From Pseudotabrizicola algicola (GTDB lineage: Bacteria > Pseudomonadota > Alphaproteobacteria > Rhodobacterales > Rhodobacteraceae): a stretch of 64,000 bases of DNA. This document shows positions 13,911 through 31,278 of this stretch, piece after piece. The DNA lies in assembly GCF_010915705.1 (NCBI RefSeq), contig NZ_JAAIKE010000001.1, forward strand, positions 930,001 to 994,000. Direction: 5' to 3'. The notes under the pieces are model-generated. The model made no database searches, was not told the origin of the DNA, and saw nothing but the letters and a program-made list of their open reading frames with translations. The number at the start of each line of letters is the position of its first letter. Within the stretch, counting starts at the first letter, position 1. Position numbers and translations under genes: made by a program.

Positions 13911-14029
13911 GACCTCCTCTTCGCTTTGGCGAGCGTGGCGGGAGGGCTGGCCGGTGAAGGCTGCGGTCTCGCCAGGCCCCGAAGGGTGGTCTGGTCATGT
14001 CAGGCGCGGGGCGAGCGTGCCGCCCGGCA

Positions 14030-14292: not shown

Positions 14293-14297
14293 TCCGG

Positions 14298-16577
14298 TCA
14301 TCCACCCCACCTTGCCATCCTGTAGACCATGGCTTGCTTGGTCGATGACCCGCGCATGCCGGTGGTGATGTCGCCGCTCTCGATCAGGGTGAGCAGGATT
14401 TCGTCGCGATCGCGCGATTTCAACCACTGCGAGGCCCGGGTGATCTCGGATTTCGTGATCCCCTTGGCCCCGGATGAACGGATGATCTCCTTCAGTCGCT
14501 TCAGGTGGGCCTCCGTCTCGGTATCCGCGACATGCCGCTCAACCGCTTCCATGGTCCGCTGGGCGTAATGCCGCACGAAGCCGATGGCCCACTCCGCTGC
14601 CGTGATCTCGATCTCGGGCCGGGCCGGATCGCGTCCCACCGCCACGATCAGCGCGAGCTTCAGAGCGTTTTCCCCGATACGGGCGAGGATTGCGGTGAAG
14701 GCTGTACCTGCCGCTGCACGTAGTTCCTCAGTCAACTCAATGCTGAGCTGGCGGAACCGGACCCTTGCCTCCTCTGTCATCGGCACGATCATCGGGTTCA
14801 CGGCGGTGTTCTGATCGGCGGTCTTGCCGGTCAGATTGCCTTTCCTGACCCCACCGCCGGCGGCGATCAGTTGCAGCCCTTGGATCAGCGCGGGTGGTGC
14901 CTGCCGGATGCCAACGGCGATGTTTTCATCCGGATAGTCCTCGTCGCTGGGCAGGATCAGGAAGCGCGCGAGCGAGCCGTCAACGACGTTGGCCCCCTGG
15001 AGGGCACCCCAGAAGTGCAGCGGCGTCGTGGTGCCATAGACGCAAAGACAGGGCTGCACGATGTCACGCCGCTCGTTCGATCCATCCCGGTTGGCGTATT
15101 CCGCGCCGAGGAAGATCCCGCCGGCTGAGGTGTAAAGCTCGGTCATGTTGTCGAGGATCTCGGTGATGTGGCGCGGGCTGCGCTTGCGGTCTGCGGCAGC
15201 TGACAGGAACATGCCGAACTCGTCTATCTGGAAGAGGATCGCGGGCTGACGATGCAGCGCGGTCAGAAGCCCCGCGCCGGAGGCGATCTTGTTGCCGCCG
15301 AGGTGATGGGCGAGCCCGGCCTCGAAGAAGGTTTCGTTGATGATTTCACGGGCGTGGTTCTTCCCCGATCCGCTGTCCGCGATGCCGACGACATAGAGGT
15401 TCGAGCGCAGGTTGCTTTCGGTGCGGTAATTCCGCCCCATCAGGGCACCGATAGCGCAGAGGCTGGCCCCAAGCGACAAAAGCGGCTGCGGGCGCCGGGC
15501 GGTGGACAGCATGTAATCCGTCAGATCGCCCACCAATCCGTCAGGGATGGCGAGCGTGAATGGCGGTTCGGCTGGGGCCAGAGACGCTGCCGCTGTTGTA
15601 ACATCCAATCGTGCAAGCAGCCCCGCCGCCGGATGATCCCCATCCTCGGACAGACTGCCATCCAGCCGTAGGTCTGGGTCGGGCTGCCAGCCGCGCTCCA
15701 TGGCAAGATGGTAGATCGTGCCAGCGCCGATCCGGTCGGGCTTGAAGCTGGCCCAAGCCTTCATGGTGGTGGCGGGGACATCCTTCGCTGCCTGCGCCGA
15801 CCAATTGGCGAAGATATCTGCCCCGGCCTCGCCGAGCGCGCCCTTCAGGGCCATGCCGACACGCATCCAGCTGTCGTAGTCCAGCTGCGCGTTTGGCAGC
15901 CACGCGAGGGCGGCCTCTATCGCGGGCAAGGTACCAATCTGACCGTGGATGCGCGCGATGTCACCGGCTGGTGCATTGGAAGCCAGCCCGCGCTGCCGCA
16001 GGGTTTCTGGCAGTAGCGCATAGGCCTCTTCGAGAAACGCCACCGCAGCTTCGGCCGTGATTTCGGGCAAGTCGGTGATGTCGATGTCCGCCAGCCCCTC
16101 CTCGGGCCAGGCATAGGGCGCGCCGGTGTCGGGGTGGATGGCATAGGCCAGGAACTGCTGCCCGAGGCAGAGCACTTCCAGCGGATGGCGTTTGATGCCG
16201 CGGAAGGGCTCGGACGTGCGATAGACCAGCATGCGCTTCGGGGCCCTGCCAATGCGCAGGGCGGGCGTGTCACCGAGACGCTCCCTGGCGAGCCGCTCGA
16301 TCTGCAGCGCCAAGTCGGCATCGTCTTTGATGTCAATATCGACCGCAGCAACTGCGCCGCCGACAATGCCGATGCCGCAATCCGGCCAGGACGACCATGT
16401 GGACACCTCGACCTCGGTGGTGCCGCGTTCGGCATGGCGGTTCCATTCAGGGTAGTCCGCCCAAGCCCCGCGCTGGAAGCGGCCGGGCTTTTTCGTGCCC
16501 GGGCCGATGGGCAGGATGGCATAGCCATTCGTGACGAGCCGCGCGCCGAAGCGCGCCATGAAGGATGTGTCAGCCAT
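14298..16577 (-). CDS. Bifunctional primase-helicase (prim-pol plus DUF3987)
   Basis: A 759-residue phage replication protein. Residues 10-190 form an archaeo-eukaryotic-type primase/polymerase: GYAILPIGPGTKKPGRFQRG at the start and VDIDIKDDADLA with the catalytic acidic pair near residue 78. Residues 205-300 resemble a PriCT-type linker (LDYDSWMRVGMALKGALGEA). Residues 330-700 match DUF3987 helicase-like ATPases, with GIADSGSGKNHAREI as Walker A near residue 400 and ILFQIDEFGMFL as Walker B. The C-terminal 70 residues look like a winged helix. It would prime and unwind phage DNA. Its start overlaps the preceding DUF6511 stop by 1 base. Confidence 0.9.
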   Translation of the reverse strand: MADTSFMARFGARLVTNGYAILPIGPGTKKPGRFQRGAWADYPEWNRHAERGTTEVEVSTWSSWPDCGIGIVGGAVAAVDIDIKDDADLALQIERLARERLGDTPALRIGRAPKRMLVYRTSEPFRGIKRHPLEVLCLGQQFLAYAIHPDTGAPYAWPEEGLADIDITDLPEITAEAAVAFLEEAYALLPETLRQRGLASNAPAGDIARIHGQIGTLPAIEAALAWLPNAQLDYDSWMRVGMALKGALGEAGADIFANWSAQAAKDVPATTMKAWASFKPDRIGAGTIYHLAMERGWQPDPDLRLDGSLSEDGDHPAAGLLARLDVTTAAASLAPAEPPFTLAIPDGLVGDLTDYMLSTARRPQPLLSLGASLCAIGALMGRNYRTESNLRSNLYVVGIADSGSGKNHAREIINETFFEAGLAHHLGGNKIASGAGLLTALHRQPAILFQIDEFGMFLSAAADRKRSPRHITEILDNMTELYTSAGGIFLGAEYANRDGSNERRDIVQPCLCVYGTTTPLHFWGALQGANVVDGSLARFLILPSDEDYPDENIAVGIRQAPPALIQGLQLIAAGGGVRKGNLTGKTADQNTAVNPMIVPMTEEARVRFRQLSIELTEELRAAAGTAFTAILARIGENALKLALIVAVGRDPARPEIEITAAEWAIGFVRHYAQRTMEAVERHVADTETEAHLKRLKEIIRSSGAKGITKSEITRASQWLKSRDRDEILLTLIESGDITTGMRGSSTKQAMVYRMARWGG

Positions 16578-16963
16578 CAGAAGGGCACCTCGGGGGTCAT
16601 GGCGTCGAGGCGTTTGCGATCCCTGGCCGCAAGCTCACGCAGGTGGTCGCAGTATCCGGTTACGACCGCATCGATGAAACAGTCCCATTCGATCTCGGTC
16701 AGCGTGGCGAGGTCGGATTTGCCGATGCTCTCGAGGTACTCGCCGCCCATCTGGCCGCCGACGGTCATCGCCTCGGCCTCGTTCGGGGTGGGATCGATCA
16801 TGCCCTTCCTCCCATGGCAGATGTCCTGGCAGGTCCGGCTGCAGAGTTGCTTGCGGCTGGCATCGCGCCGCGGGTCGGAGACGCGGAAATCCCGGTCGAA
16901 CCAGCCAAACCCACGAGGTTGCCGGTGGCAGACGGCGCAGAGGCTGGTGTGGATTTGGGGCAT
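16577..16963 (-). CDS. DUF6511 zinc-binding phage protein
   Basis: A 128-residue protein with an N-terminal Cys cluster: CAVCHRQPRGFGWFD near residue 9 and LCSRTCQDICHG near residue 40, consistent with a zinc ribbon. The remainder is helical (EIEWDCFIDAVVTGYCDHLR). This matches DUF6511 proteins found beside phage helicase and primase genes. The first 166 bases overlap the 3' end of the SF2 helicase gene in another frame, an unusually long overlap. The stop overlaps the primase start. The strong motif identity supports that it is translated. Confidence 0.8.
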   Translation of the reverse strand: MPQIHTSLCAVCHRQPRGFGWFDRDFRVSDPRRDASRKQLCSRTCQDICHGRKGMIDPTPNEAEAMTVGGQMGGEYLESIGKSDLATLTEIEWDCFIDAVVTGYCDHLRELAARDRKRLDAMTPEVPF

Positions 16964-18534
16964 GGATCAAACCTGTGGCGGGAGACTTCGACGTAGCGGC
17001 CCGAGGGACGGACCGAGATTTCGCTGGGGCGAGCAAGACGCGCGGCTTCCGCGATGGCCTGATCGACGGTGAGCGGCACCGGGCACTCCGGGGCGCGCTT
17101 GCGCCACCATTCAGCCGCCTTCTGCCGGGCATAGCCCTGATGCTCGATGCAGACCCATTCGCTGTAGGATTTCAGCCCGCAGCTATAAGTGACCTTCAGC
17201 GAGGGCAGCCCGCCCAGCTTGTCGTGGCGGCTGTAGGAGACGCCGTGCACCGGCAGCCATTGGACCTTCGGCGACAGGACTGGGAGCGTGGCCGCCGTCG
17301 GGGCGATCTTCACCTCGCGGGCCGGGAACACATGGCCACAGTCGGGGCATTCCGTCGCCGAAAGCGCGATGATGCTGTCGCATTCCGGACAGACCTTGGT
17401 CGGGGCCTCGCCGCCACCGGCCTCGCCGGGCCGCCGAGGCCGCACCAGATCGATCGGCCCGTGGCGGCGGACATTGCCAGCGAAGTCGAGGACCAGGCAG
17501 TTTTCCTTGCCCGGGGCGAGGCGCGTGCCGCGGCCCACCATCTGCACATAGAGCCCTGCGGACTTGGTGGGGCGCAGGAGCGCGATCAGATCGACCGCCG
17601 GCGCGTTGAAGCCGGTGGTCAGCACGCCCATCGAGGCGAGCGCCCGGATTTCACCCAGCTTGAAGGCCGTGATGATGGCGTCCCGTTCGTCCTTCGGCGT
17701 GTCGCCAAAGATCGTGCGGCAGGTGATCCCCTGTCGACCAAACTCCTCGGCCACATGGCGGGCGTGCTCGACGCCGGAACAGAAGACCAGCCAGGATTTC
17801 CGCTCGCGACCATGTGCGATGATCTCGGTAACCGCGGCGCGGGTGATGGCCTCCTTATCAACGGCAGCCGCCAAATCGCGCTGGATGAAATCGCCAGCGC
17901 GAGTGCCGACCTTCGAGACATCGAGCCGCGTGGCGAGCTGTTTCGACACTAGCGGGCTCAGATATCCAGCATCGATCAGATCGCGCACCGGTGCCTCGTA
18001 GGCGATGTCAGTGAAGAGCGCGTTCTTGCCCTCATGCAGCATGCCGCTGTCGAGCCGGAAGGGCGTGGCGGTCAGCCCGATCACCTTCAACGCAGGGTTG
18101 ATCCGGGCCAGCCCATCCAGAAACCGGCGATACATGGTGCTGGTGTCGCCGGGAATGAGATGCGCCTCGTCGATCAGCACGAGATCCGTGTGGCCGATCT
18201 CAGCCGCGCGGCGGTGGATGGACTGGATGCCTGCAAACAGGATCTGCGCCCGTGCCTCGCGCTTGCCCAAGCCCGCCGAATAGATACCGGCCGGGGCCTC
18301 CGGCCAGAGGCCGATCATCTCGGCATGGTTCTGGGCGATCAGCTCGCGGACATGGGTCACGATCAGGATGCGCTGGTCGGGCCAGGCTTTCAGCACGCCC
18401 TTGATGAAGGCGGCCATGACGAGGGACTTTCCCCCGGCAGTCGGGATCACCACCAGCGGGTTGCCTTTGTGGTTCTGGAAATAGCCGTAGATCGATGTGA
18501 TCGCGGCCTGTTGATAGGGGCGCAGGGTCAGCAT
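16798..18534 (-). CDS. DEAD/DEAH-box (SF2) helicase
   Basis: A 578-residue superfamily 2 helicase. PTAGGKSLVMAAFI is Walker A (residue 32), LVLIDEAHLIPGD is the DEAH box, VIGLTATPFR is motif III, and YVQMVGRGTRLAPGKENCLV is motif VI. A zinc ribbon follows (CPECDSIIALSATECPDCGH, near residue 385). It resembles phage UvsW/RadD-type branch-migrating helicases used in recombination-dependent replication. The final 55 residues, coded over the DUF6511 gene start, are Ser/Ala/Pro rich and look unstructured, so the true functional end may be earlier. It overlaps the nuclease gene stop by 7 bases. Confidence 0.93.
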   Translation of the reverse strand: MLTLRPYQQAAITSIYGYFQNHKGNPLVVIPTAGGKSLVMAAFIKGVLKAWPDQRILIVTHVRELIAQNHAEMIGLWPEAPAGIYSAGLGKREARAQILFAGIQSIHRRAAEIGHTDLVLIDEAHLIPGDTSTMYRRFLDGLARINPALKVIGLTATPFRLDSGMLHEGKNALFTDIAYEAPVRDLIDAGYLSPLVSKQLATRLDVSKVGTRAGDFIQRDLAAAVDKEAITRAAVTEIIAHGRERKSWLVFCSGVEHARHVAEEFGRQGITCRTIFGDTPKDERDAIITAFKLGEIRALASMGVLTTGFNAPAVDLIALLRPTKSAGLYVQMVGRGTRLAPGKENCLVLDFAGNVRRHGPIDLVRPRRPGEAGGGEAPTKVCPECDSIIALSATECPDCGHVFPAREVKIAPTAATLPVLSPKVQWLPVHGVSYSRHDKLGGLPSLKVTYSCGLKSYSEWVCIEHQGYARQKAAEWWRKRAPECPVPLTVDQAIAEAARLARPSEISVRPSGRYVEVSRHRFDPCPKSTPASAPSATGNLVGLAGSTGISASPTRGAMPAASNSAAGPARTSAMGGRA

Positions 18535-19472
18535 GGCGCGGCCTCCGTTGTGCGGGCGTCGTTTGCCCAGGTCGAGCCATCGGCCATGCGGTAGGTGACG
18601 ATATCGTCGCCCGCATCGATGACTTCGCCCGGAACGAGATCGGGGGTGAAGAGATGGCGGGTGCAGGCTGCACGCTGCTCGGCGGGTGCCAGCATCCGGT
18701 CGTGGCGGGCGCAGTGCCAGCCGCCGTCAACGGGCGTCGCATGCAGGCAGGACCGGCAGGTCACAGCCGCCCCACCGCCGTCATGACAGGCGGCATGGTG
18801 ATCGCAGAAGCGGCATTCGAACCAGGTGGGGTCCTCGCTGATCCGCGCGGGCGGGTGCTGGGCGAAGATAACGCGCCCGGCCTTGTCCAAGAGGCGTTTG
18901 GCCATGGCGCTGTCGGAATCGATGCGCTCGATGTGCAGCGCGTCGGTATCCTTGCAGACCGCGACGTACAGGGCGCGGTGGATCCCCGTCAGATGCATGT
19001 AGATCTGCATCTGCGCGGCGTGCTGGGGCTTGGCCTGCACCACGCCTTTGGCGGTCAGCTCGCTGAAGCTCTTGACCCCATGGGTCTTGAATTCCAGCAC
19101 ATGCCAGGTCTTCGGGGCCTCGAGGATGCCGATGGCCACGCCATCGAGCGACCCGCCGAAATGGCCGCCATGGGCCTCGACGCGGAACTGGCGGCCGGTT
19201 TCCGGATCAACCTCGAGCACCGTCGCACCGGTGGCGCGCAGATTGCGCACGAGGCGGTCCTCCTCCAGCTGGCCGGTCTCGAAGAGGCGCAGCAGGCGGC
19301 CAGAATGGCGCGCAGGCGTGACCCAGCGGAAATCATACCAGAGTGCGCGAGCACAGGCCTTGCCGATGATGGACGCCCCGAGGTGGTCGCGGAAACCATC
19401 GCCCTGACGGGCCTCGTAGTCGGCATAGACCGCCGTCAGCGTCGGCGTGGGGGTGTCGGGAAGCTCAGCCAT
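18528..19472 (-). CDS. Cas4-like PD-(D/E)XK exonuclease with Fe-S and extra Cys cluster
   Basis: A 314-residue nuclease. GGSLDGVAIGI supplies the Asp and WHVLEFKTHGVKSF the E-x-K of the PD-(D/E)XK core, and AAQMQIYMHLTG the conserved Gln/Tyr motif. One Cys near residue 41 (IIGKACARALWYDF) plus CRFCDHHAAC near residue 220 form the four-Cys set that binds an iron-sulfur cluster in Cas4/AddB nucleases. A second Cys/His cluster follows (CRSCLHATPVDGGWHCARH). It probably resects DNA ends for the Sak4-like annealing system encoded upstream. The start at 19472 overlaps the previous stop by 1 base; another ATG lies one codon upstream. Confidence 0.88.
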   Translation of the reverse strand: MAELPDTPTPTLTAVYADYEARQGDGFRDHLGASIIGKACARALWYDFRWVTPARHSGRLLRLFETGQLEEDRLVRNLRATGATVLEVDPETGRQFRVEAHGGHFGGSLDGVAIGILEAPKTWHVLEFKTHGVKSFSELTAKGVVQAKPQHAAQMQIYMHLTGIHRALYVAVCKDTDALHIERIDSDSAMAKRLLDKAGRVIFAQHPPARISEDPTWFECRFCDHHAACHDGGGAAVTCRSCLHATPVDGGWHCARHDRMLAPAEQRAACTRHLFTPDLVPGEVIDAGDDIVTYRMADGSTWANDARTTEAAPC

Positions 19473-19834
19473 CACAGCCCCTCCCGTTCACTGCGCGCCT
19501 GCGCCTCGGCCAGAATGCCGGTCCAGGTTTCCGGATCATGGCGCTCGCGCAGAACGCCGATCAGCGCGTCCTTCAGCTTTTCGCGGCGGTGACGTCCGGT
19601 GCCTTGGGCCAGAAGTTCCGCCCGTTCGCGGCTGAGATGCCGCAGCGCCGTTCGGGCCCGGTGGAACCAGTCGGGGTCGATGGATTTGTGACCCCGCTGC
19701 CGGGCCAGATCGGCTGTCGCGATCTGGGTGCGGATCTTGGCAATGGCGTCGTCGAGTTCGATCAACCGGCGCTGATCATCAGGCAAGCCGGGGCCGTTCA
19801 CGGCCACGGGGGCCGCGTTGTTCATGTCAGTCAT
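19472..19834 (-). CDS. Hypothetical phage protein, 120 aa
   Basis: A 120-residue helical protein. A long amphipathic segment, RRLIELDDAIAKIRTQIATA, could form a coiled coil, followed by a basic helix region (FHRARTALRHLSRERAELLA). No domain is recognised. It is translationally coupled to the Cas4-like nuclease downstream and lies in the recombination operon, so a role as an accessory to that machinery is possible but only inferred from position. Codon use matches its neighbours. Confidence 0.7.
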   Translation of the reverse strand: MTDMNNAAPVAVNGPGLPDDQRRLIELDDAIAKIRTQIATADLARQRGHKSIDPDWFHRARTALRHLSRERAELLAQGTGRHRREKLKDALIGVLRERHDPETWTGILAEAQARSEREGL

Positions 19835-19899
19835 GGGAGTGTCCTCAGATGGGGTTGGGCACCGCCCCGGCCGTCAACAGGTCAGGGCGGCGCAGCGCA

Positions 19900-20397
19900 T
19901 CAGCCCTTCTTGTTCCAGGGCGCAGACGCCATCTTGGGCGGGGCCGCAGGTGTGGCGGGCGCAGCGGGCGTCGGTTTGGCTGCACGGGCCGCAACGCCGC
20001 GGTCGGGCGGCAGATAAGCGACGGCATTGCTTTCGCCGTAACCGTTCTTCGGCGGCTTGACCTTCACCTGGATCGTCATCGGGATCAGGTGCAGCTCCTC
20101 GCTGTCGCTGACATGCATCTTGCCCGTCGCGTGGCAGATGGCCGACAGCGTGCGCTGCGCGATTTCCACCGTGGTCGGGTTCGGGTTAACGAGGTTCAGC
20201 TGATCGAAGATCTTCCGCCCCTTGTACTCGCCCTCGAGGATGTCGAGCATCAGCCAGAGAAACTGGCCCATGCCGTTCTTGGTGACGCGCATCTCGCTTT
20301 CAACGATCTGGGCGCGGTATTTGCCAGCAGGCAAAAGCTCGTGGGCGGTGGTGGGTTCGACGCTGGTGGCGTCAAAGGACGTGTCGAAACGTGCCAT
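19900..20397 (-). CDS. DUF669-like single-strand DNA-binding protein
   Basis: A 165-residue protein with the DUF669 pattern: LLPAGKYRAQIVESEMRVTK near residue 22, GMGQFLWLMLDILEGEYKGR around residue 42, and IFDQLNLVNPNPTTVEIAQR. The C-terminal 40 residues are a Pro/Ala linker ending APWNKKG, like the tail of SSB-type proteins. DUF669 proteins sit beside Sak4-type recombinases and probably coat single strands during phage recombination. The Sak4-like gene is directly upstream in the same operon (21 bases), which supports this role. Confidence 0.82.
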   Translation of the reverse strand: MARFDTSFDATSVEPTTAHELLPAGKYRAQIVESEMRVTKNGMGQFLWLMLDILEGEYKGRKIFDQLNLVNPNPTTVEIAQRTLSAICHATGKMHVSDSEELHLIPMTIQVKVKPPKNGYGESNAVAYLPPDRGVAARAAKPTPAAPATPAAPPKMASAPWNKKG

Positions 20398-20418
20398 GGT
20401 CTTGTCCTTTCAAGGCGA

Positions 20419-21165
20419 TCATTCGGATTGGGGCATGGCCGCCATGAACTCTGCCCAGCTGAGGGGCAGCGTGTCCGGCAGGCCGTAACGGTTCTTGGCG
20501 AGGAAAGCGGGGCGCTCCTCGGTGTGCATGACGCGCGCACCAGACCCGAGCGCCCGGGTTACCTTCTTGTTGAAGCCGACATCGGATTTCGCGACCGAGA
20601 TCTGATAGTTGGCGAAGAGCACGACGTCCGAATGCTCCTGCAAGAGCGCCGAGGCGCGGGCCTGCAGCTTGATCACGTACCGGTCGTAGGGCTCGTGCTC
20701 GGGGCTGTCGAAGCGCTTGATGTCAGTATGAGCGATCTGGATGACCGCCATGCCCTTCTGGTCCCGGAGCGCATTCAGCTTGTCGAGATACTCGCGCCAG
20801 ATATTCAGCGCCTCGCCATAGCCCTTCCCAAAGCCGGGGGTTTCGATTGAGGCCCAGCCATTGCGTAGGCAGGCCTCGGCCCAGATCAGCGGCTCCAGCC
20901 AGTCGACGCTGTCTATGACCACCGTACCGAACGCGTGATCCTCGCTCAGCAGCGCATCGAGCGCCCCGGCCACATCCGCATAGCTTGTCGCCAGCGGAAA
21001 ATGCGGCACCTGCAGCTTGCCGAGCCCGTCCTCAGTCATGATGAAGACCGGCCGGTCGGCATCGGCCGCAAAGGTGGACTTGCCGACCCCGGCGACGCCG
21101 TGGATCAGGATGCGCGGCGGCGTCAGCGCCGAGGTCATGCGCAGGGATGCGAGAGAAATGGCCAT
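20419..21165 (-). CDS. Sak4-like RecA-fold ATPase (single-strand annealing)
   Basis: A 248-residue RecA-fold ATPase of the phage nucleotide-binding (Sak4-like) family. ILIHGVAGVGKSTFAADADR is Walker A near residue 20, and FGTVVIDSVDWLEPLIWAE is Walker B near residue 80. Length and the later pattern KLQARASALLQEHSDVVLFA match short single-domain recombinases that act with an SSB-like partner. The DUF669-like partner lies 21 bases downstream and a Cas4-like nuclease follows, giving a full recombination set. Its start overlaps the preceding gene stop by 1 base. Confidence 0.88.
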   Translation of the reverse strand: MAISLASLRMTSALTPPRILIHGVAGVGKSTFAADADRPVFIMTEDGLGKLQVPHFPLATSYADVAGALDALLSEDHAFGTVVIDSVDWLEPLIWAEACLRNGWASIETPGFGKGYGEALNIWREYLDKLNALRDQKGMAVIQIAHTDIKRFDSPEHEPYDRYVIKLQARASALLQEHSDVVLFANYQISVAKSDVGFNKKVTRALGSGARVMHTEERPAFLAKNRYGLPDTLPLSWAEFMAAMPQSE

Positions 21166-21650
21166 CAGATCGCTCCCTCGTTCAACACCAGACGGAACTT
21201 GGGCTTACCGGTCCGGACCGTGCGCGCGGGCTCAAAACCCCTGCGCCAGCTTTCCGGCAGGGCACCGTACTTGCGCTCCGAGACCGACAGCTTGGTGTCG
21301 ATGAACTCGGCCGGGTCTTCGCCAGCGGATGCGATGTTTGCAGCGATCTTGGCGAGCTTGGTCTGGTCCCAATCGATACGCTTGGGCAGTTCGGCGATGA
21401 CGGTGACGCCGCCATCCTCGAACCGGATCGTGCCAGTGTCCTTGCCAGCCTCATGGCGAAAGTCACCGGCGCGATCGGCGTATTTCAGGGAAATGGCGCC
21501 ATCGAGCCAGTCCGAGATGGACTTCGCCTGCGTCAGCTGCTCGTCCGCCATGCCTTTCAGCAGGGCGAGCTGGTCGGCGGGCAGCGCAGCGATCTGGCCC
21601 ACCGGCATGCGGTGGATATCGGCGAGGGTGATGTGATTGGAGATCGTCAT
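21165..21650 (-). CDS. Hypothetical phage protein, 161 aa
   Basis: A 161-residue protein beginning MTISNHITLADIHRMPVGQI, with the core RFEDGGVTVIAELPKRIDWD and DPAEFIDTKLSVSERKYGAL. I recall similar proteins beside Sak4/DUF669 genes in alphaproteobacterial phages but cannot name a function. Start 21650 was chosen because GGGGGATGAC lies just ahead; an in-frame ATG at 21665 lies within the neighbouring HTH gene. It overlaps the Sak4-like gene by one base, so the two are co-translated and probably act together. Confidence 0.75.
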   Translation of the reverse strand: MTISNHITLADIHRMPVGQIAALPADQLALLKGMADEQLTQAKSISDWLDGAISLKYADRAGDFRHEAGKDTGTIRFEDGGVTVIAELPKRIDWDQTKLAKIAANIASAGEDPAEFIDTKLSVSERKYGALPESWRRGFEPARTVRTGKPKFRLVLNEGAI

Positions 21651-21661
21651 GTCATCCCCCC

Positions 21662-21871
21662 TCACGCCGACATCGGCCGATGGGGTTCATGATCCGCGCC
21701 GCGGATCTGCTCGACCTCGAAGGCTTCGACATCCTCCAGCCGGTAGATCACCCGGCCGCCGAGCTTGATGAATTTCGGGCCTTCACCCGTCCACCGCCAG
21801 CGCTCCAACGTGCGGTGCGAAATGTTCCAGCGAGCCGCCAGCTCGATCTGGGAAAGGTGCCTGGTCGCCAT
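21662..21871 (-). CDS. Helix-turn-helix protein, AlpA/excisionase-like
   Basis: A 69-residue MerR/AlpA-type DNA-binding protein: LSQIELAARWNISHRTLERW is the helix-turn-helix and GEGPKFIKLGGRVIYRLEDV the wing with its typical Arg-Tyr end. Proteins of this shape act as excisionases or as activators of early phage genes. It is the first gene of the leftward recombination/replication operon, so it could control that operon. Its promoter must lie within 21872-21974, before the terminator of the next leftward unit. Confidence 0.85.
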   Translation of the reverse strand: MATRHLSQIELAARWNISHRTLERWRWTGEGPKFIKLGGRVIYRLEDVEAFEVEQIRGADHEPHRPMSA

Positions 21872-21974
21872 GTGAACCTCCTTGGGATTTCCGCGAACAC
21901 TTGCGGGATCAACATGGCGGAGGGCGTGGTAGGGCTGAGGGAGGGCACCGGTAGGGAAGCCGGTAGGAGAGTCA

Positions 21975-22007
21975 CAAAATCAAAAGGCCGCCCTTCTGGA
22001 CGGCCTT
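21975..22007 (-). terminator. Rho-independent terminator of the two-gene unknown unit
   Basis: Read leftward, AAGGCCGTCC and GGGCGGCCTT form a 10-base stem (one mismatch) around AGAA, followed by TTTTGATTTT. It lies 24 bases after the stop of the 315-residue gene. It closes that unit off from the replication operon to its left. Confidence 0.85.
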
Positions 22008-22030
22008 CGAAATGGCGATGGCTGATCGGA

Positions 22031-22978
22031 TTAGGGCTCTATCCAACAGTTTCCGTCGGCGTATTTGATGAACGAGCGCCAGTCGTCGCGCCCGCTGAAC
22101 ACCTTTGAGAATGCGTTCGTGCCGTCCTTGTAGCCCGCTTCATACAACACGGCTTCAGTCAGGCATGTTGCAGAACCTGCTTCGTACGCATCGAACAAGA
22201 CGTTCAACAGTCGCCGCTGCTTGGGGCTCTTGAAGGTGAGGGTTTCGCCGCGCAGCCAGACGATGCCGTAGTCATCCGAATGATCGATCGGGAAACGACG
22301 CTGCACTTGCCCGGGGAACACCCGCGCAGCGAGTACCTGCGGCGAGATCGTGAGCTTGGCCGGATCACCTGCAACATCCGACACATTGATGATGTGGTTG
22401 CGCTTCTGGGCGGTCTCCGGGATGCGCTCACCGGGCGTGGAGGTCAGGATAATGCGGATTTCCTCCGGCGGCTTGCGTCCGATCAGCGCCTCGAGCTGCG
22501 CCCAGCCCCTCGGATCTCCAAGCCGCCGGGCAAACCAGACGGGCGCTGGGGCCTTCGCTCCGGTAAGCTTGATGGTTCCCACGTCCCAGACAAGATCCGA
22601 GATCAAGGGCGTCGGGCGTGAGGGCCCGGCGCGCTCGAACGCCACCAGCATCTTGGCAAGGGCCAGACCGTAGTCGACCCTGCACGCCGCGATCTCCTCA
22701 TTAGCGACCTTAACCCAGCGGCCGGTGCTGTCGTGATAGCCGTATGATTTCAGCTCGGCCGACCAGGTGGCCTCGACCGGTTCATCCTCGTAATCGTCCA
22801 TCCTGGCAACAACTGGGACATGCCCGCTCGGCACCAGAAGCTTCGCTGCGAGCAATGCGTCGGTCGCACCGCGCGAGACCTGATGCAGCGCCGATGCCTG
22901 GAGAGACGTGCTGCGGGCTTCCATGGCCCGCAGCAGGAGGTCGATCGCCCGCTTACTCAAGGATGTCGCCTTCGTCAT
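22031..22978 (-). CDS. Unknown protein, 315 aa, second gene of the immunity-region pair
   Basis: No family is recognised. The N-terminal third is helical (LSKRAIDLLLRAMEARSTSL) and includes SWxAELKSYGY-like WSAELKSYGYHDSTGRWVKV. The middle has DLVWDVGTIKLTGAKAPAPV and RPEEEIRI-like KPPEEIRIILTSTPGERIPE. The last 75 residues (TFKSPKQRRLLNVLFDAYEA through FSKVFSGRDDWRSFIKYADG) look like a winged-helix domain. No signal peptide or membrane segment. It overlaps the upstream 408-residue gene by 26 bases and is followed by its own terminator. It is divergent from an XRE/ImmA pair, so it is probably repressed until induction. Confidence 0.75.
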   Translation of the reverse strand: MTKATSLSKRAIDLLLRAMEARSTSLQASALHQVSRGATDALLAAKLLVPSGHVPVVARMDDYEDEPVEATWSAELKSYGYHDSTGRWVKVANEEIAACRVDYGLALAKMLVAFERAGPSRPTPLISDLVWDVGTIKLTGAKAPAPVWFARRLGDPRGWAQLEALIGRKPPEEIRIILTSTPGERIPETAQKRNHIINVSDVAGDPAKLTISPQVLAARVFPGQVQRRFPIDHSDDYGIVWLRGETLTFKSPKQRRLLNVLFDAYEAGSATCLTEAVLYEAGYKDGTNAFSKVFSGRDDWRSFIKYADGNCWIEP

Positions 22979-24179
22979 TGTCGTCTTTCAGGATGCCCCA
23001 GAGGCGCAGATACTTCTCGCCGATCAGGCGCTCTTGCGCCGTCATGTCCTTCAGATTGCAGCCGTGCGGCATCGTGACGTTGAGGGCCAGCGACTTGCCA
23101 CGACCGCCGGAGGGGCCCGGATGGAACTTGATGGTGAAGCGTGCGCGGGTAATCACCCATTCCGGCACGTCACCTGCGTGACCGAACACATGGGCACCGC
23201 CCCCGATGTCCAGTCCGATACGGTGTTCCGCCATCTGCCAGATCGTACGGTCGGCGCCCGACATGGATTCAAGCGTGATGCGCTCCTTTGCGTCGCCGAG
23301 ATCCATCAGACGCAGTTCCTTGACTGTCACGCTGGCAATCCCGTCGGCAGGGTCGGTCGGGAAGTCGAACGGCCGCAGCAACATGCTGAGGTCGAATTCG
23401 CGCAGCGGCAGCGACTGGTCCTCACCAAGGGTGATCCCGAGCAGATCGCGCGCCATGAACCGGGTCAGATCGATCCGGTCCTCGCGGGTCTTAGCCACAA
23501 CTTCGATCACGCCAGTCGCAGCTTCATAGGTCAGCGCAGCTTCGAAGACAGGTTTCACGATCCGGCGTGACAAGGTGCTGTTGGCATCGAAGCCCAGCAT
23601 GTCCTCAGGACGCCCCTCCCGGTAGACCGCGACCTGAACAAGTTCGCATTCTTCACCATCGAGGATCACCCGGTGGCGGTCGAAGATGTCGACATGGACA
23701 TTGGGCGTCTCAAACCGAGCCCGGATTGCCGCCGTAAACGCCGCGAGCGAGATCGGGTCCTTTTTCACCTCCAGATCGGCATCGACGCCAAACCCGCTCC
23801 AGGACCGCGTCCGGCGACGTTCGTCGTTGTAGCGCACCTCTTCCGCGAGACGGAAACGATCAGGCTCCTTCAAAAAAACCCACAGCGAGCGATTGTTGGC
23901 CCCCTCCAGCGCGTCGAACACAGCGCGGTTTTGCACGACGTTCTGCAAGGCGTTCTGCCCCGGTTCATCAGCGAGAGCCGCGACACGGCCGGCATCAAGG
24001 ACGACGCGCTGCTTTTCGTCGTCGGACATGCCGTCCACGGCCTTGATCAGCGGCTCGACGACGTCCGGCTCGGGCTTGGTCCAATCGACAGGCGCGAGCG
24101 AGGTGAAAGCGCCGGCAGTGAAGTAGTCCTGCAAACGGGTAACGGGGGTCTTGCGGAGGAATGCAGCAATGGAGGTCAT
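22953..24179 (-). CDS. Unknown protein, 408 aa, first gene of the immunity-region pair
   Basis: No family is recognised. The protein is acidic and soluble. Notable stretches are FLRKTPVTRLQDYFTAGAFT at the start, a helical region around residues 50-110, ISLAAFTAAIRARFETPNVH near residue 145, DRIDLTRFMARDLLGITLGE near residue 240, and RFTIKFHPGPSGGRGKSLAL near residue 355. The Gly-rich GPSGGRGKS run resembles a P-loop by eye but is not in a normal Walker A setting. Its start faces the operator pair at 24237-24303, 60 bases away. It may be a defence, lysogeny or stress gene carried by the prophage; the sequence does not decide. Confidence 0.75.
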   Translation of the reverse strand: MTSIAAFLRKTPVTRLQDYFTAGAFTSLAPVDWTKPEPDVVEPLIKAVDGMSDDEKQRVVLDAGRVAALADEPGQNALQNVVQNRAVFDALEGANNRSLWVFLKEPDRFRLAEEVRYNDERRRTRSWSGFGVDADLEVKKDPISLAAFTAAIRARFETPNVHVDIFDRHRVILDGEECELVQVAVYREGRPEDMLGFDANSTLSRRIVKPVFEAALTYEAATGVIEVVAKTREDRIDLTRFMARDLLGITLGEDQSLPLREFDLSMLLRPFDFPTDPADGIASVTVKELRLMDLGDAKERITLESMSGADRTIWQMAEHRIGLDIGGGAHVFGHAGDVPEWVITRARFTIKFHPGPSGGRGKSLALNVTMPHGCNLKDMTAQERLIGEKYLRLWGILKDDNDEGDILE

Positions 24180-24236
24180 GCGGGGCCCTTTCTTGGCCGG
24201 GAGGAGGAGGGAATCAGCGCGGCGCGATACGCTGAC

Positions 24237-24303
24237 GTTCGATATATACCGAACAAATCGCCGAGTCTACTTGCGCGGCACATTTTTGTTCGGCATATCG
24301 AAC
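24237..24303. promoter_or_regulatory. Two palindromic operators between divergent units
   Basis: Operator 1 at 24237-24254 is GTTCGATATATACCGAAC and operator 2 at 24288-24303 is GTTCGGCATATCGAAC. Both have GTTCG and CGAAC arms, with centres of 8 and 6 bases. They lie 33 bases apart between the start of the leftward unknown pair (24179) and the XRE gene (24340). This is the layout expected if the XRE protein represses both directions. Promoter elements probably overlap the operators. Confidence 0.75.
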
Positions 24304-24339
24304 GCACGTCCTGAACCCAAGGAAACCAAGGATGAAACG

Positions 24340-24660
24340 ATGACCACGTCCCTCGGCGCGAAGATCAAGCGCCACCGCCAGGAAAAGGGATACTCCCTCG
24401 ACAAGCTCGCCGAGCTGACCGACTCGAGTAAGAGCTACATCTGGGAGTTGGAAAATCGCGATACCCGCAAGCCGTCAGGTGAAAAGCTGACACGTATCGC
24501 CCAAGCCCTCGAGGTCACGACCGATTACCTGCTCGACGAGAGCGAGGAGCCCAGTGATCAGGTGCTGAAGGAAGCATTCTTCCGAAAGTTCAGCAAGCTT
24601 GCCCCGGAGGACCAGCAGAAGATCAACCAGATGATCGACATGTGGGGGAAGAAGGATTGA
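24340..24660 (+). CDS. XRE family repressor
   Basis: A 106-residue regulator with a classic XRE helix-turn-helix at residues 5-65 (GAKIKRHRQEKGYSLDKLAE, then LTDSSKSYIWELENRDTRKP). A short C-terminal tail with EEPSDQVLKEAFFRKF follows. AAGGA lies 7 bases ahead of the ATG. The stop overlaps the start of the ImmA/IrrE gene, giving an ImmR-ImmA-type pair: the repressor holds target promoters off and the protease destroys it on an inducing signal, as in ICEBs1 (established example). The two palindromes directly upstream are its probable binding sites. Confidence 0.9.
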   Translation: MTTSLGAKIKRHRQEKGYSLDKLAELTDSSKSYIWELENRDTRKPSGEKLTRIAQALEVTTDYLLDESEEPSDQVLKEAFFRKFSKLAPEDQQKINQMIDMWGKKD

Positions 24661-25574
24661 GCCTGCCGACGACGCCGCAGAGCTGGGCTAACCGCCTGAC
24701 GAAGATCCTGTCCTTGCATCAGGCTGCGCACGGGTTGCCGCGGTTCCCCATCGATGTGGCAGCGTTGGCGCAGGATTTCTCGCAGCAGGTCTTTCCGGAG
24801 GCGCCGATTACCATTGTGAAGGGGCTTCAGCTCTCAAAGGGCGTCGAAGGCATGCTGATGCCGCACCCCAGCGGCTCTGGCGAGTGGGGCATCGTCTATA
24901 ATGAGAGCATCCGGTCTACAGGGCGGCGCAACTTCACACTGGCGCATGAACTGGGGCACTACCTTCTGCATCGGCAGACCAACCCGCGCGGCCTACAATG
25001 CACCAATCGCAACATGGCCGAATGGGATGAAGCCAGAAATAGGATTGAGGGCGAGGCCAACACCTTTGCCTCGTACCTGCTGATGCCGTTGGATGACTTC
25101 CGCGCCCAGATCAAGGGACGGGTAATCGACATCGACGTGATGACCGAGTTGTCGGACCGCTATGCCGTGTCCCTGACGGCGGCGATCCTGAAGTGGATGA
25201 CCATCACCGACAAGCGCGCCATGATCGTGGTCGGCAAGGAAGGCTTCATCGATTGGGCTTGGTCCAGCGAGCCGTTATTGAGATCCGGTGTATTCTATCG
25301 CGCACGGCAGGAAGTGACCGAGTTGCCGCCAACGTCATTGGCAGCGCAGGAAGTGGACTCGGATACGGGGCGCCACGGCCATCACCACCCGGCAGGTGTC
25401 TGGCTTGGCTCCGAGCCGGTGCGTGAAATGACCGTGTTCTCGCCCGGCAAAGAGATGTCGATTTCGCTGCTGCTCTATCCCGACCGCGTGCCATCGCGGT
25501 GGGAGATGGCCGAGCTCGAGGAAGAGCCAACACTCGACACGTTCGACAAGTTCATGGGCGACAAAGCGCGCTGA
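24657..25574 (+). CDS. ImmA/IrrE family metallopeptidase
   Basis: A 305-residue protein with the zinc protease motif in FTLAHELGHYLLHRQ near residue 97 and the third ligand region in IEGEANTFASYLLMPLDDFR near residue 133. The C-terminal half (residues 170-300) is a less conserved domain that may sense the inducing signal. TTG at 24657, overlapping the XRE stop as TTGA and preceded by GAAGAAGG, is preferred; an in-frame ATG at 24642 lies inside the XRE gene. Family members cleave the partner XRE repressor. It probably switches on the two unknown leftward genes, or prophage excision. Confidence 0.9.
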   Translation: MSLPTTPQSWANRLTKILSLHQAAHGLPRFPIDVAALAQDFSQQVFPEAPITIVKGLQLSKGVEGMLMPHPSGSGEWGIVYNESIRSTGRRNFTLAHELGHYLLHRQTNPRGLQCTNRNMAEWDEARNRIEGEANTFASYLLMPLDDFRAQIKGRVIDIDVMTELSDRYAVSLTAAILKWMTITDKRAMIVVGKEGFIDWAWSSEPLLRSGVFYRARQEVTELPPTSLAAQEVDSDTGRHGHHHPAGVWLGSEPVREMTVFSPGKEMSISLLLYPDRVPSRWEMAELEEEPTLDTFDKFMGDKAR

Positions 25575-25739: not shown

Positions 25740-25988
25740 ATGTCATCCACTCTCGAAGGCCCGGTTTCGGGGCCCAACCCCCTATGCCCTGAGCGCATGT
25801 CATCCGAGGCGCGCCTTGCCGAGATCGGCCGCATCCTAGCCGCTGGGGTAATGCGGCTGAACGCTGCACAGTCCAGCGGTTTATCTGTCGAGAACGGAGA
25901 CAGTTTCGTGGACTTCTCGCCCCGAAAGAGCGGTGGTCGTCGTGCAAAACGTATCCGCATCGGAGGAATTCATGAAGCATCACAATAA
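25740..25988 (+). CDS. Small protein of the integration cassette, 82 aa
   Basis: An 82-residue protein whose core, EARLAEIGRILAAGVMRLNA then QSSGLSVENGDSFVDFSPRK, matches a small protein that regularly precedes DUF2924 and recombinase genes in alphaproteobacterial elements. Its function is unknown; it may help recombination directionality (inference from position). It overlaps the DUF2924 gene by 17 bases. The next two genes also overlap each other, so the cassette is translated as a coupled set. Confidence 0.75.
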   Translation: MSSTLEGPVSGPNPLCPERMSSEARLAEIGRILAAGVMRLNAAQSSGLSVENGDSFVDFSPRKSGGRRAKRIRIGGIHEASQ

Positions 25989-26472
25989 GATAGTTTCCAT
26001 CCAACCGGGCAATGACCCAAGCCTGGACCAGACGGTGCTGTCACGCCTGGCCGCTCTGAAGGAGATGTCGGTCAAGGAGCTGAAAGCCGAATGGGAAAAG
26101 CTCATCGGCACCTCGGCACCGAACAACAGCCGGGCGTTTCTTGAACTGCGGATCGCCTATCGGCTTCAGGAACTGACCTACGGCGGCCCCGACCGGGACA
26201 CGCGGCGTATGCTGGACTTGCTGGCCGACGAGGTCGAAGGCCACGCCCGGCGCAAACATCAGATCGCCGATCCCCGCAATCCGGTGGCGGGCACGAAGCT
26301 GCTGCGCGAATGGGACGGCGTCGAGCACACCGTGACCGTGCTAAAGGACGGCTTCGACTGGCAGGGACGCAAGTTCAAATCGCTCTCCGCCGTCGCCCGC
26401 GAAATCACTGGCACCCGATGGAACGGGTACCGTTTCTTTGGCCTGCGCGAGCGCAAGCGGGAGGAGGCATGA
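25972..26472 (+). CDS. DUF2924 domain protein
   Basis: A 166-residue DUF2924 protein: VLSRLAALKEMSVKELKAEW, then ELRIAYRLQELTYGGPDRDT, and the C-terminal motif REWDGVEHTVTVLKDGFDWQ, followed by SLSAVAREITGTRWNGYRFF. The C-terminal part resembles DNA-binding modules that accompany serine recombinases. GGAGG lies ahead of the ATG at 25972. Its stop overlaps the recombinase start (ATGA). DUF2924 genes are known chiefly as companions of large serine recombinases on alphaproteobacterial mobile elements; a recombination accessory role is likely but unproven. Confidence 0.88.
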   Translation: MKHHNKIVSIQPGNDPSLDQTVLSRLAALKEMSVKELKAEWEKLIGTSAPNNSRAFLELRIAYRLQELTYGGPDRDTRRMLDLLADEVEGHARRKHQIADPRNPVAGTKLLREWDGVEHTVTVLKDGFDWQGRKFKSLSAVAREITGTRWNGYRFFGLRERKREEA

Positions 26473-27797
26473 TGCAGCTGGACAGTCGCCCGAACCGCCG
26501 CCTGCGCTGCGCCATCTACACCCGCAAGTCGAGCGAGGAAGGGCTCGACATGGAATTCAACAGTCTCGACGCGCAGCGGGAGGCCTGCGAGGCCTATATC
26601 GTCAGCCAGCGCTCCGAGGGCTGGGTTGCCACGCGCGAGCGCTATGACGACGGTGGGTTTTCCGGTGGAAATCTTGACCGGCCCGGCCTGAAACAGCTTC
26701 TTGCCGATATCGATGATGGTCTGATCGACGTCGTGGTGGTCTACAAGATCGACCGCCTCAGTCGTTCGCTGATGGATTTCTCCAAGCTGGTCGAGGTGTT
26801 CGACCGCAACGGCGTGACCTTCGTCTCGGTGACGCAGTCATTCAACACGACCACCTCTATGGGACGGCTGACGCTAAACATTCTGCTGTCCTTCGCCCAG
26901 TTCGAACGCGAGGTCATCGGCGAACGCATCCGCGATAAGGTGGCGGCCTCGCGCAAGCGCGGGATCTGGATGGGGGGCTATGTGCCCCTCGGCTACGATG
27001 TGCAGGACCGAAAGCTGGTGGTGAACGAGGCGGAGGCCGCCTCGGTGCGCCGGATCTTCGAACGGTTCATTGAGCTTGGCTCCGCTACGGTACTGGCGCG
27101 GGAACTGCGCCGTGAGGGCTTCCGCAACAAGCAGGGCACGCTGATCGACAAGGGCTACCTCTATCGGTTGCTCAATAACCGGGTTTACCGGGGCGAAGCT
27201 CTGCACAAGGGCAAGTCCTATCCGGGCGAACATGCCGCCATCATCGAAGCCGACCTCTGGGACAGCGCCCATTCCATTTTGCAGGAAAGCCCGCGCAAGC
27301 GTGCCAACAACAGCCGCGCCCAGACACCAGCGCTGCTGAAGGGGTTAATTTTCAGCGAGAACGGCGCGGCCATGACGCCAACGAGCACCAAGAAGGGGGC
27401 CAAGCTCTACCGCTACTACGTCTCAATGGATGTGATCCGGAACCGCGAGACCGGCGAGGAGACCGCGCCGATGCGGCTCGCCGCCGGAATGGTCGAGGAC
27501 GCGGTCGTGACCGAAGTGCGGCGCATCCTGCAAACGCCCGAAGTTGTCACGCAGGTGTTGGCCGCCCTGAAACGCGACGGCCTTGGGGCATACGAGGCGG
27601 ATGCCATCGCTGCTCTGCACGAGTTCAAGGCTCTCTGGTCACAACTCTTCCCAGCCGAACAGGCCCGCATCATCCAGCTTCTGGTGCGGCGCGTCACGGT
27701 CACCGCCGCTGGGCTCGAGGTCGACATTCGCCGCGAGGGGATTGCGGGCGTCATCCGCGAGATGGTGGCTCCACGCCGGATGGAGGCTGCAGAATGA
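26469..27797 (+). CDS. Large serine recombinase (integrase)
   Basis: A 442-residue serine recombinase. The resolvase domain (residues 10-160) has the catalytic Ser at about residue 21 in AIYTRKSSEEGLDMEF, plus YKIDRLSRSLMDFSKLVEVF and FAQFEREVIGERIRDKVAAS. A recombinase DNA-binding domain (residues 170-280) contains VNEAEAASVRRIFERFIELG and RGEALHKGKSYPGEHAA. The zinc-ribbon position (ALLKGLIFSENGAAMTPTST) lacks the usual Cys residues. It catalyses integration and excision at att sites. Start 26469 overlaps the DUF2924 stop; MM allows 26472 as well. Confidence 0.95.
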   Translation: MMQLDSRPNRRLRCAIYTRKSSEEGLDMEFNSLDAQREACEAYIVSQRSEGWVATRERYDDGGFSGGNLDRPGLKQLLADIDDGLIDVVVVYKIDRLSRSLMDFSKLVEVFDRNGVTFVSVTQSFNTTTSMGRLTLNILLSFAQFEREVIGERIRDKVAASRKRGIWMGGYVPLGYDVQDRKLVVNEAEAASVRRIFERFIELGSATVLARELRREGFRNKQGTLIDKGYLYRLLNNRVYRGEALHKGKSYPGEHAAIIEADLWDSAHSILQESPRKRANNSRAQTPALLKGLIFSENGAAMTPTSTKKGAKLYRYYVSMDVIRNRETGEETAPMRLAAGMVEDAVVTEVRRILQTPEVVTQVLAALKRDGLGAYEADAIAALHEFKALWSQLFPAEQARIIQLLVRRVTVTAAGLEVDIRREGIAGVIREMVAPRRMEAAE

Positions 27798-28198
27798 TCA
27801 AACCGGACGACACGATCCGCGTGCTGATCCCGTTGAAGGTGCGCAAGAAGAACGGGCGGCCGAAGATCTTGCCGCCCGCCGACTATCGACCGAGCGAGGA
27901 TCAGGCGCAGGATCCGCACATCCTGCGCGCAATCGGCCGCGCATGGGGGTGGCGGCGGCGCATGGATGCCGGTGAGTTCGCCACCATTCAGGAACTTGCC
28001 GAGGCCGTGGGACTGGCCGAACGCCATGTCAGCCGCCAGCTCAGGTTGGCATATCTGGCACCCGAGGTGCTGAAGCGGCTGACTTGCGGGCGAGAGGCGT
28101 CGGCAGTCAGCCTCTATGATCTGTGCTTTCTGGCGGGCGAAACCTGGGTGGAGCAAGTGGAGCACTCCGTCGGCAACGCATTGGCTAGAATGACGTGA
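27794..28198 (+). CDS. Recombinase-associated HTH protein
   Basis: A 134-residue protein starting in the ATGA overlap with the recombinase stop. The middle holds a helix-turn-helix, ATIQELAEAVGLAERHVSRQ, followed by LRLAYLAPEVLKRLTCGREA, which resembles the HTH and following helices of ParB-like proteins. It is a common last gene of the DUF2924-recombinase cassette. It might act as a recombination directionality or att-binding factor; this is inferred from linkage only. It is the last gene I assign to the prophage. Confidence 0.82.
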   Translation: MIKPDDTIRVLIPLKVRKKNGRPKILPPADYRPSEDQAQDPHILRAIGRAWGWRRRMDAGEFATIQELAEAVGLAERHVSRQLRLAYLAPEVLKRLTCGREASAVSLYDLCFLAGETWVEQVEHSVGNALARMT

Positions 28199-28426: not shown

Positions 28427-29410
28427 TCAGTTCTGCCAAGCCATGGCGCCCCATATTGTGCCGGCACCGAAGGCTGACAGCAGGACCGGGCCGTTGTCCA
28501 GCAATCCACCCTCTGCATGGTGGCAGGACAGGGCGAGGGGGATCGTTGCAGCCGAGGAATTGCCGTGCAGTGACAAGGTACCAAGGCGCGGCGTGTTCCC
28601 CAGCCCCAGCCGCCCCGCAACTTGGTCGAGAATGCGACCATTGGCCTGGTGCGGCATCCAGAACCCAAGGTCGTATGGGTGTAAACCTGCACGTCGAAGC
28701 GCCTCCGCGCTGGAGGTCGCCATGCATTCCACCGCCCGGGCAAAGACGGCGCGACCGTTTCGCATCTGCATCCGGGCTTCGATCGGCGTGCCGGGAACAT
28801 CTGGGGTGCGGCTGCCGCCTCTTTCGATCAGGATCTCATCGTATAGCCCTCCATCAGACCCGAGGACCACCGAAAGCGGGCCTCGGCCCGGATCAGCGCA
28901 GGGCGCCACCACGACCGCCCCCGCTGCATCAGCAAAAAGCGCCCGCGTGCTGGCATCCTTGGGGTCGATGCGGCGGGATAGAATGTTGGCTGCGATCACC
29001 AGAACCGGCTGTCCCGTCAGCCGGGCATGGCCTGCTGCGAGGGCGAGAGCATGAAGAAACCCCGAACAGGCCCCTGCGATATCGACGGCGCCGCAAGACA
29101 ACCCTAGGCGATGCGCAACCAAAGGCGCCGTCGGCGGCAAGAGGTGATCTGGCGTCGACGTGGCCAGTAGCAAGAGGCCGATCTCCCTCACCTCCAAGCC
29201 CGCATTTTGCAGCGCCATGGCTCCGGCAGGCACCGCCAGATCGCTCAACGCCTGACCGGGGCTGGCATAATGCCTGGCAGAAATGCCGGTACGGGCCAGG
29301 ATCCAGCCCGGTGCCAAGCCCAGATCTGCCTCGATCTCGGCATTGGTCACCACCCGCTCGGGCAGATAATGGCCGAAGCCCGCCCAGCACAGACCGTCAG
29401 CCGAAGGCAT
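28427..29410 (-). CDS. bioZ: BioZ, beta-ketoacyl-ACP synthase III-like pimeloyl enzyme
   Basis: A 327-residue KAS III-family enzyme. VDIAGACSGFLHALALAAGH holds the active Cys, FWMPHQANGRILDQ the His, and SLHGNSSAATIPLALSC the Asn. In alphaproteobacterial biotin operons this gene is bioZ, which condenses glutaryl-CoA with malonyl-ACP to start pimeloyl-ACP synthesis without BioC/BioH (established for this family). It is the last gene of bioBFDAZ and overlaps the bioA stop. Start 29410 (MPSADGLCW) has GAGG six bases upstream; ATG 29434 is in frame but lacks one. No bioC or bioH is seen nearby. Confidence 0.9.
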   Translation of the reverse strand: MPSADGLCWAGFGHYLPERVVTNAEIEADLGLAPGWILARTGISARHYASPGQALSDLAVPAGAMALQNAGLEVREIGLLLLATSTPDHLLPPTAPLVAHRLGLSCGAVDIAGACSGFLHALALAAGHARLTGQPVLVIAANILSRRIDPKDASTRALFADAAGAVVVAPCADPGRGPLSVVLGSDGGLYDEILIERGGSRTPDVPGTPIEARMQMRNGRAVFARAVECMATSSAEALRRAGLHPYDLGFWMPHQANGRILDQVAGRLGLGNTPRLGTLSLHGNSSAATIPLALSCHHAEGGLLDNGPVLLSAFGAGTIWGAMAWQN

Positions 29411-30653: not shown

Positions 30654-30662
30654 CTTGCCGCC

Positions 30663-31277: not shown

Positions 31278-31278
31278 C

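Follow-up and report, generated by a model that had tools for sequence, protein, structure and literature searches.

We analysed a 64,000-nucleotide (nt) stretch of Pseudotabrizicola algicola DNA (contig NZ_JAAIKE010000001.1, positions 930,001 to 994,000), referred to below as the window, which contains a group of four genes that may constitute a damage-triggered switch of a prophage. Two leftward genes, encoding the proteins designated A and B and overlapping by 26 nt, face genes for an XRE-type repressor and an ImmA-like metalloprotease, exactly as an earlier sequence-only reading of this DNA had described. The four genes, the sites associated with them and the first gene downstream of the pair are listed below, with sizes in amino acids (aa) and the sources of the assignments, including the list of open reading frames (ORFs), in brackets.

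24340..24660, plus strand: CapH-type XRE repressor, 106 aa from the ATG (PADLOC capH, PDB 7t5u)
24642..25574, plus strand: CapP-type M78 metalloprotease, 310 aa (PADLOC capP, PDB 7t5t)
24237..24254, no strand assigned: operator 1, GTTCG-N8-CGAAC (motif scan)
24288..24303, no strand assigned: operator 2, GTTCG-N6-CGAAC (motif scan)
22953..24179, minus strand: protein A, 408 aa, first gene of the leftward pair (ORF list, PHROGs, structural model, fold matches)
22031..22978, minus strand: protein B, 315 aa, second gene of the pair (ORF list, structural model)
22034..22300, minus strand: OmpR/PhoB-type winged helix at the C-terminus of B, residues 227-315
21983..22008, minus strand: terminator-like hairpin and T-run of the A-B operon (hairpin scan, consensus)
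21928..21967, minus strand: four CCTMCC-type direct repeats, 11-12 bp apart; candidate binding site of B
21662..21871, minus strand: xis-like HTH_17 protein, 69 aa, gene 1 of the early operon (ORF list, Pfam, PHROGs)

The four genes had been taken for a self-contained unit; they are instead the control region of a prophage, with portal, terminase and early genes to the left and a serine integrase to the right. The portal and large terminase genes are at 2093-3619 and 4510-6510, respectively. The early genes adjoin A-B on the same strand, and their order recurs in relatives. Contig C24 of the same genome carries a second copy of approximately 13 kb, with the same gene order and 84 percent identity, and the order continues over this distance in relatives as well.

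By sequence, the XRE and ImmA-like proteins are matches of CapH and CapP. The repressor matched the PADLOC capH profile over residues 1-106 (expectation value, E, 3.8e-32) and the CapH-type domain of PDB 7t5u (E 1.9e-16), while the protease matched the capP profile (E 2.5e-72) and the solved CapP structure, PDB 7t5t (E 1.3e-67); HELGH, the M78 zinc motif, is present in the protease alignment. It has been reported that single-stranded DNA (ssDNA) activates CapP, which then cuts CapH (PMC13373217, PMC10904395), and that CapHP occurs in immune operons (PMC13373217). CBASS is among the immune operons that CapH-CapP pairs regulate.

The two GTTCG..CGAAC operators noticed earlier between the divergent gene pairs were examined in a set of related loci (numbered L), which was collected by likeness to A proteins and is not a random sample. 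Among 94 distinct intergenic regions between A and capH, the window's own included, 92 have at least one operator and 68 at least two; the regions of L148 and L158 have none. Because of this conservation, the operators are not regarded as chance occurrences. Sites of this kind, with spacers of 2-14 nt, occur five times in the 64-kb window, and none was found there upstream of the xis-like gene.

Searches with A and B gave no match in Pfam or PADLOC at E 1. In NCBIfam, A had no match and B a single one at chance level (E 0.33). Within PHROGs, A matched phrog_37634 (function unknown; E 9.7e-74), and the other matches of A and B were at chance level (0.19-0.24). On these profile comparisons the A-B pair is in no family of known function, in agreement with the sequence-only reading. 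A tblastn search of GenBank phages with A gave no match at E 0.01, and one match was obtained among plasmids. The model of A (mean predicted local distance difference test score, pLDDT, 79.4) has a helical N-terminus followed by mixed alpha/beta domains. That of B (mean pLDDT 88.2) consists of mixed alpha/beta domains with a C-terminal winged helix, whose fold matches are of the OmpR/PhoB type; no receiver domain was detected in B by the Pfam search. Residues 1-226 of B gave no usable fold match, in a search that barely tested them, one domain having filled the match list. An alignment of fused with separate A and B proteins misplaced the rows of B and was kept out of the folding.

The first 15 Foldseek matches of A were kinetochore chains labelled N or L (read from the chain letters as CENP-N/Chl4 and CENP-L), followed by RdgC and RexA among others. 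These matches are weak (template modeling scores, TM, of 0.14-0.36 by query length). The viral fold library yielded one match of A under E 0.001, with a poor TM, as well as a "recombination-associated protein" at 2.4e-3, and none for B. A common fold has been reported for RexA, RdgC, IML3 and CHL4 (PMC11077077). The model thus suggests that the phage protein A has a fold weakly resembling that of CENP-N/L, RdgC and RexA. Membership of the RdgC or RexA families by sequence was rejected (hhalign probabilities of 0.2 and 0.4 percent).

Downstream of B, the hairpin scan alone proves little, since its yield over 5 kb was 5 terminator-like sites, close to the chance expectation of 4.0. The stem and T-run at 22008-21983 are, however, retained in the consensus of 81 distinct B-xis regions. 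Between this terminator and the xis-like gene lies the repeat array, whose last unit is 62 nt before the start codon. A strict three-unit pattern is unique to the array in the 64 kb (two overlapping matches; mean of 0.02 in 50 Markov sequences). Of 173 loci, 96 carry this pattern in the 220 nt preceding the xis-like gene, and 24 matches lie elsewhere in 2.05 Mb of loci. By a looser test, at least two phased units precede the xis-like gene in 105 of 124 distinct regions; for 100 of these 105, from genomes of several bacterial lineages (more than one class), the distance from the beginning of the last unit to the start codon is 60-63 nt. The unit spacings are 11 or 12 (217/251) or 22 or 23 (31/251). 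In those inspected loci where cargo genes separate B from xis, the array stays with xis, and in L279 it lies behind capP, before the early genes, on the strand opposite to A-B. PhoB is described as binding 11-bp direct repeats with a 7-bp core (PMC2648988), and the geometry of the array appears close to that of a PhoB-type target.

It is very unlikely that the array is instead a replication origin, with B (together with A) acting as an initiator made on induction. Iteron origins consist of direct repeats near replication genes and are bound by a winged-helix protein, a description that the array fits, and AT-rich DNA surrounds it in some gammaproteobacterial loci (L283, L285, L286). Opposed to this are the distance to the start codon, held nearly constant in more than one class, as for a promoter, and the 11-12 bp spacing, which suits binding of the PhoB type.

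Co-variation points to a partner for the array. Pairwise distances between arrays were compared with those between A proteins, two parts of B, the xis-like proteins and the phrog_2480 proteins (p2480) in 102 distinct loci. The winged helix of B gave the highest correlation (Spearman 0.645, versus 0.36-0.53 for the other proteins), with a partial r of 0.482, matched by 0 of 2000 permutations. The partial values of the others were 0.124 for A (1/2000 permutations), -0.077 for the rest of B, 0.051 for xis and 0.08 for p2480; the loci are not independent, and the permutation counts are therefore not plain probabilities. A neighbouring control segment (-52 to -6) gave a partial value of 0.531 with xis and 0.047 with the winged helix. 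The value linking winged helix and array was 0.668 in 58 close loci and 0.66 in 44 distant ones. When CapH and CapP were added (78 loci), the winged helix retained a value of 0.465 and that of CapH was -0.135. With partial correlations of -0.135 to 0.124, xis, A, the N-terminal part of B, p2480, CapH and CapP were rejected as proteins that the array follows.

The correspondence can be narrowed to single residues. In 52 close loci the best columns were the adjacent B residues 295 and 296 (window numbering) of the recognition segment, each of which separates 23 loci from 29 without exception, and the top 16 array-separating columns all fall in the winged helix. Arrays of the CCTACC type occur with Ser at one position of the recognition segment (42/42 loci), and those of the CCTCCC type with another residue there (38/41), so that array type and residue agree in 80 of 83 distinct loci. 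The tree of A implies at least 14 changes of array type; across 10 independent pairs, the residue shifted the same way in 9.4 on average and the opposite way in 0. Linkage between the array and the coding end of the winged helix was rejected as the whole cause, since the neighbouring segment behaves otherwise and the match survives separation or inversion: type and residue correspond in 24 of 26 loci, some of them near-identical, in which 665 nt or more lie between array and B or the array is on the far side of CapHP. These comparisons indicate that co-variation with the array is found chiefly in the winged helix of B. The resulting protein-array code (Ser with CCTACC, other residues with CCTCCC) can be tested with natural proteins.

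Surveys of 248 genomes from the family, 385 from the class and 398 from the phylum, each including the window's own genome, found homologs of A in 28, 9 and 30 genomes, respectively. Among 181 distinct A followed by 900 nt or more of sequence, 175 have B alongside or fused (42 are fused), and no B was detected for the other six, L073, L229, L288, L290, L291 and L292. The upstream regulator was recorded for 162 distinct A with at least 1300 nt upstream. The question raised by the sequence-only reading, whether the pair always travels with XRE/ImmA genes, received a mixed answer: (i) 109 unfused A have an adjoining M78 gene (93 with divergent CapH and CapP, 5 with divergent M78 only and 11 with M78 on the same strand), (ii) 3 have a LexA-like gene on the same strand in place of M78, (iii) 37 are fused A-B, 36 of them without M78, and (iv) 13 show none of these arrangements. 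Of the three LexA-like genes, the two that were searched (L283, L286) both carry LexA DNA-binding and S24 domains. A-B thus stays constant while the regulator upstream varies between CapHP, XRE-M78 and LexA-like. As the pair and its array are found in at least two bacterial classes, behind three different regulators, the sensor seems to be an exchangeable part.

Several relatives have distinctive surroundings. The fused proteins of L089-L093 and L179-L222 are of approximately 735 aa (frames broken in L089 and L093), and in L089-L093 they face DUF2924 and recombinase genes. L084-L087 contain A-B with a shorter B and a tyrosine recombinase, beside genes for a type I methylase, Cas9, a type III methylase or a type III-type helicase. 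In L080-L083, L094 and L096, M78, A and B are on one strand, near varying large divergent genes (McrBC-like in L082; a 1100-aa protein without a family match in L096), and an XRE gene precedes M78 in L081, L083 and L096. In L231 (plasmid CP013100.1), A-B directly precedes a multiubiquitin gene, a 177-aa gene without a Pfam match and a ThiF-type gene, which from our reading of the sequence is followed by an integrase-like gene. A cargo slot between B and the array holds AbiEii-AbiEi-type and RES-Xre-type toxin-antitoxin pairs (L144, L148, L153, L157, L162, L168, L076, L233, L234; families were searched in L144 and L153, and the others look alike).

Surroundings of this kind bear on a defensive role, in which CapHP would release A-B as an anti-phage module, for RexAB-like exclusion or otherwise, and the connection of B with the array would be a side duty only. 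We consider this quite unlikely. Neither A nor B has a PADLOC match, for which reason a defence system was dropped as the first choice, and the array is located before phage early genes, remains there when cargo parts it from B and tracks the DNA-binding domain of B. RexB is the membrane partner of RexA, and B, with its mixed alpha/beta domains and winged-helix end, seems unlike it. A defensive role would accord with the presence of CapHP in immune operons, with the weak likeness of A to RexA, an exclusion protein reported also to bias the lambda switch (PMC11077077), with the position of 4 of 5 A-B relatives of the clade L084-L088 beside type I or III restriction genes or Cas9, and with the toxin-antitoxin cargo next to B. 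Of the three roles guessed at earlier (anti-phage, superinfection exclusion, lysogeny switch), the co-variation of winged helix and array before the early operon favours the last.

We therefore propose, with a probability of roughly 0.6, a two-stage, damage-triggered prophage switch, in which CapHP frees A-B, B binds the array and the early operon is turned on. In the lysogen, CapH, bound to the two operators, would hold down the divergent A-B promoter. As ssDNA builds up, CapP would cut CapH, as reported for CapHP elsewhere. A and B would then be made, from a transcript ending at the A-B terminator, and the winged helix of B would bind the four repeats before the xis-like gene, thereby switching on the recombination and replication genes of the early operon; A would be a DNA-binding partner of B in the same complex. 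This proposal is supported by the identity of CapH and CapP by sequence, the conserved operators, the pairing and fusion of A and B, the array, its fixed distance from the gene and the co-variation with the winged helix. From these we infer direct binding, activation in preference to repression, and the part played by A.

Two considerations favour activation: CapH should prevent A-B expression in the lysogen, and the distance at which the array precedes the gene is fixed. The opposite sign, repression of the early operon by B (with A) in a double-negative switch that the CapHP branch only tunes, would account equally well for the relationship between B and the array, but is improbable: with two operators between A-B and the divergent capH in the window, the pair should be silenced by CapH in the lysogen, and about 55-60 nt separate the end of the array from the gene, a usual position for activators.

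A number of observations weigh against the proposed activating switch. In relatives of the LexA and XRE-M78 types, A-B is on the strand of the repressor, which also fits a pair made during lysogeny, as repression by B would have it. A scan for sigma-70-like promoters found none upstream of xis, and the same scan found none for A-B or capH. Among the 44 distant loci, the control segment tracks the winged helix (0.336) and A (0.451) as well, compared with 0.66 between array and winged helix. In 32 distant loci the separating columns occur throughout B and in part of A; of the five B columns with full separation, two belong to the winged helix and the others lie elsewhere in B, so that this test is not specific in these loci. 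Array type and residue disagree in L021, L148 and L234, the last two with mixed arrays. Fused A-B showed no array above background in the 30 loci of L179-L222 inspected, and no convincing array was found for the relatives beside restriction or Cas9 genes. The model does not explain fused A-B, or A-B beside a type I methylase, type III methylase, type III-type helicase or Cas9 with a tyrosine recombinase; in such loci the pair may do something else, control other genes or bind other sites.

A wider generalisation is more tentative. A-B might represent a new class of two-protein relay, in which a protein of CENP-N/L- and RdgC-like fold licenses an OmpR-type partner on repeats with 11-bp spacing. 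The upstream position would then accept any damage sensor (CapHP, XRE-M78, LexA-like), and mobile elements beside restriction, Cas9 and ubiquitin-like operons would have recruited the pair to control those genes.

The remaining features of the prophage flank the control region on both sides:

14298..21665, minus strand: remaining early genes, encoding phrog_2480, Sak4-like, DUF669-like, Cas4-like, helicase-like and primase-like proteins (phrog_2480, Sak4 and Cas4 from PHROGs; DUF669-, helicase- and primase-like from reading of the translations)
25933..28198, plus strand: DUF2924 protein, serine recombinase (integrase) and ParB-type helix-turn-helix protein (Pfam, PHROGs)

At 9865-12412 the prophage contains two DNA methyltransferase genes, one with a ParB-like domain. 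To the right of the integrase, the translations at 28427-33382 have the look of a biotin synthesis cluster, probably the chromosomal flank. The second copy of the module is located at 16072-19602 of C24 (L002, L003), and in L003 the translations at 13435-14577 suggest a 380-aa XRE-M78-like protein, followed by a 166-aa unknown protein.

Parts of the proposed switch resemble several known systems. B shares with OmpR/PhoB regulators its C-terminal fold and, as putative target, tandem direct repeats near 11 bp; it differs from them in that no receiver domain was found and in being paired with or fused to A. Like A, lambda RexA is encoded next to a repressor gene. A differs from the RexA/RdgC/CENP-L/N group in lacking profile similarity to RdgC or RexA and in its extra helical N-terminus, and its partner seems unlike RexB. 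ImmR-ImmA of ICEBs1 and TnSmu1 is likewise an XRE repressor with an M78 antirepressor that controls a mobile element (PMC10233336). In the published model, as far as that account describes it, loss of ImmR activates the element, whereas here a second-stage pair with its own terminator would intervene. The pyocin switch of Pseudomonas aeruginosa, PrtR-PrtN with its P-box, is similar by logic only: damage is reported to remove a repressor, upon which a second regulator acts at a conserved site before phage-type genes (PMC8609362). In the present case the sensor would be a repressor-protease pair and the second stage would comprise two proteins. With CapH-CapP itself there is likeness in sequence, as both proteins match over almost their entire length, the operators are conserved and an HELGH-containing M78 protease accompanies its partner repressor. 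The neighbours here are a prophage A-B pair and phage early genes, not a known immune operon. A damage sensor known from immune operons would thereby be placed in an apparent lysis-lysogeny switch of a phage, together with a second stage and its likely DNA target.

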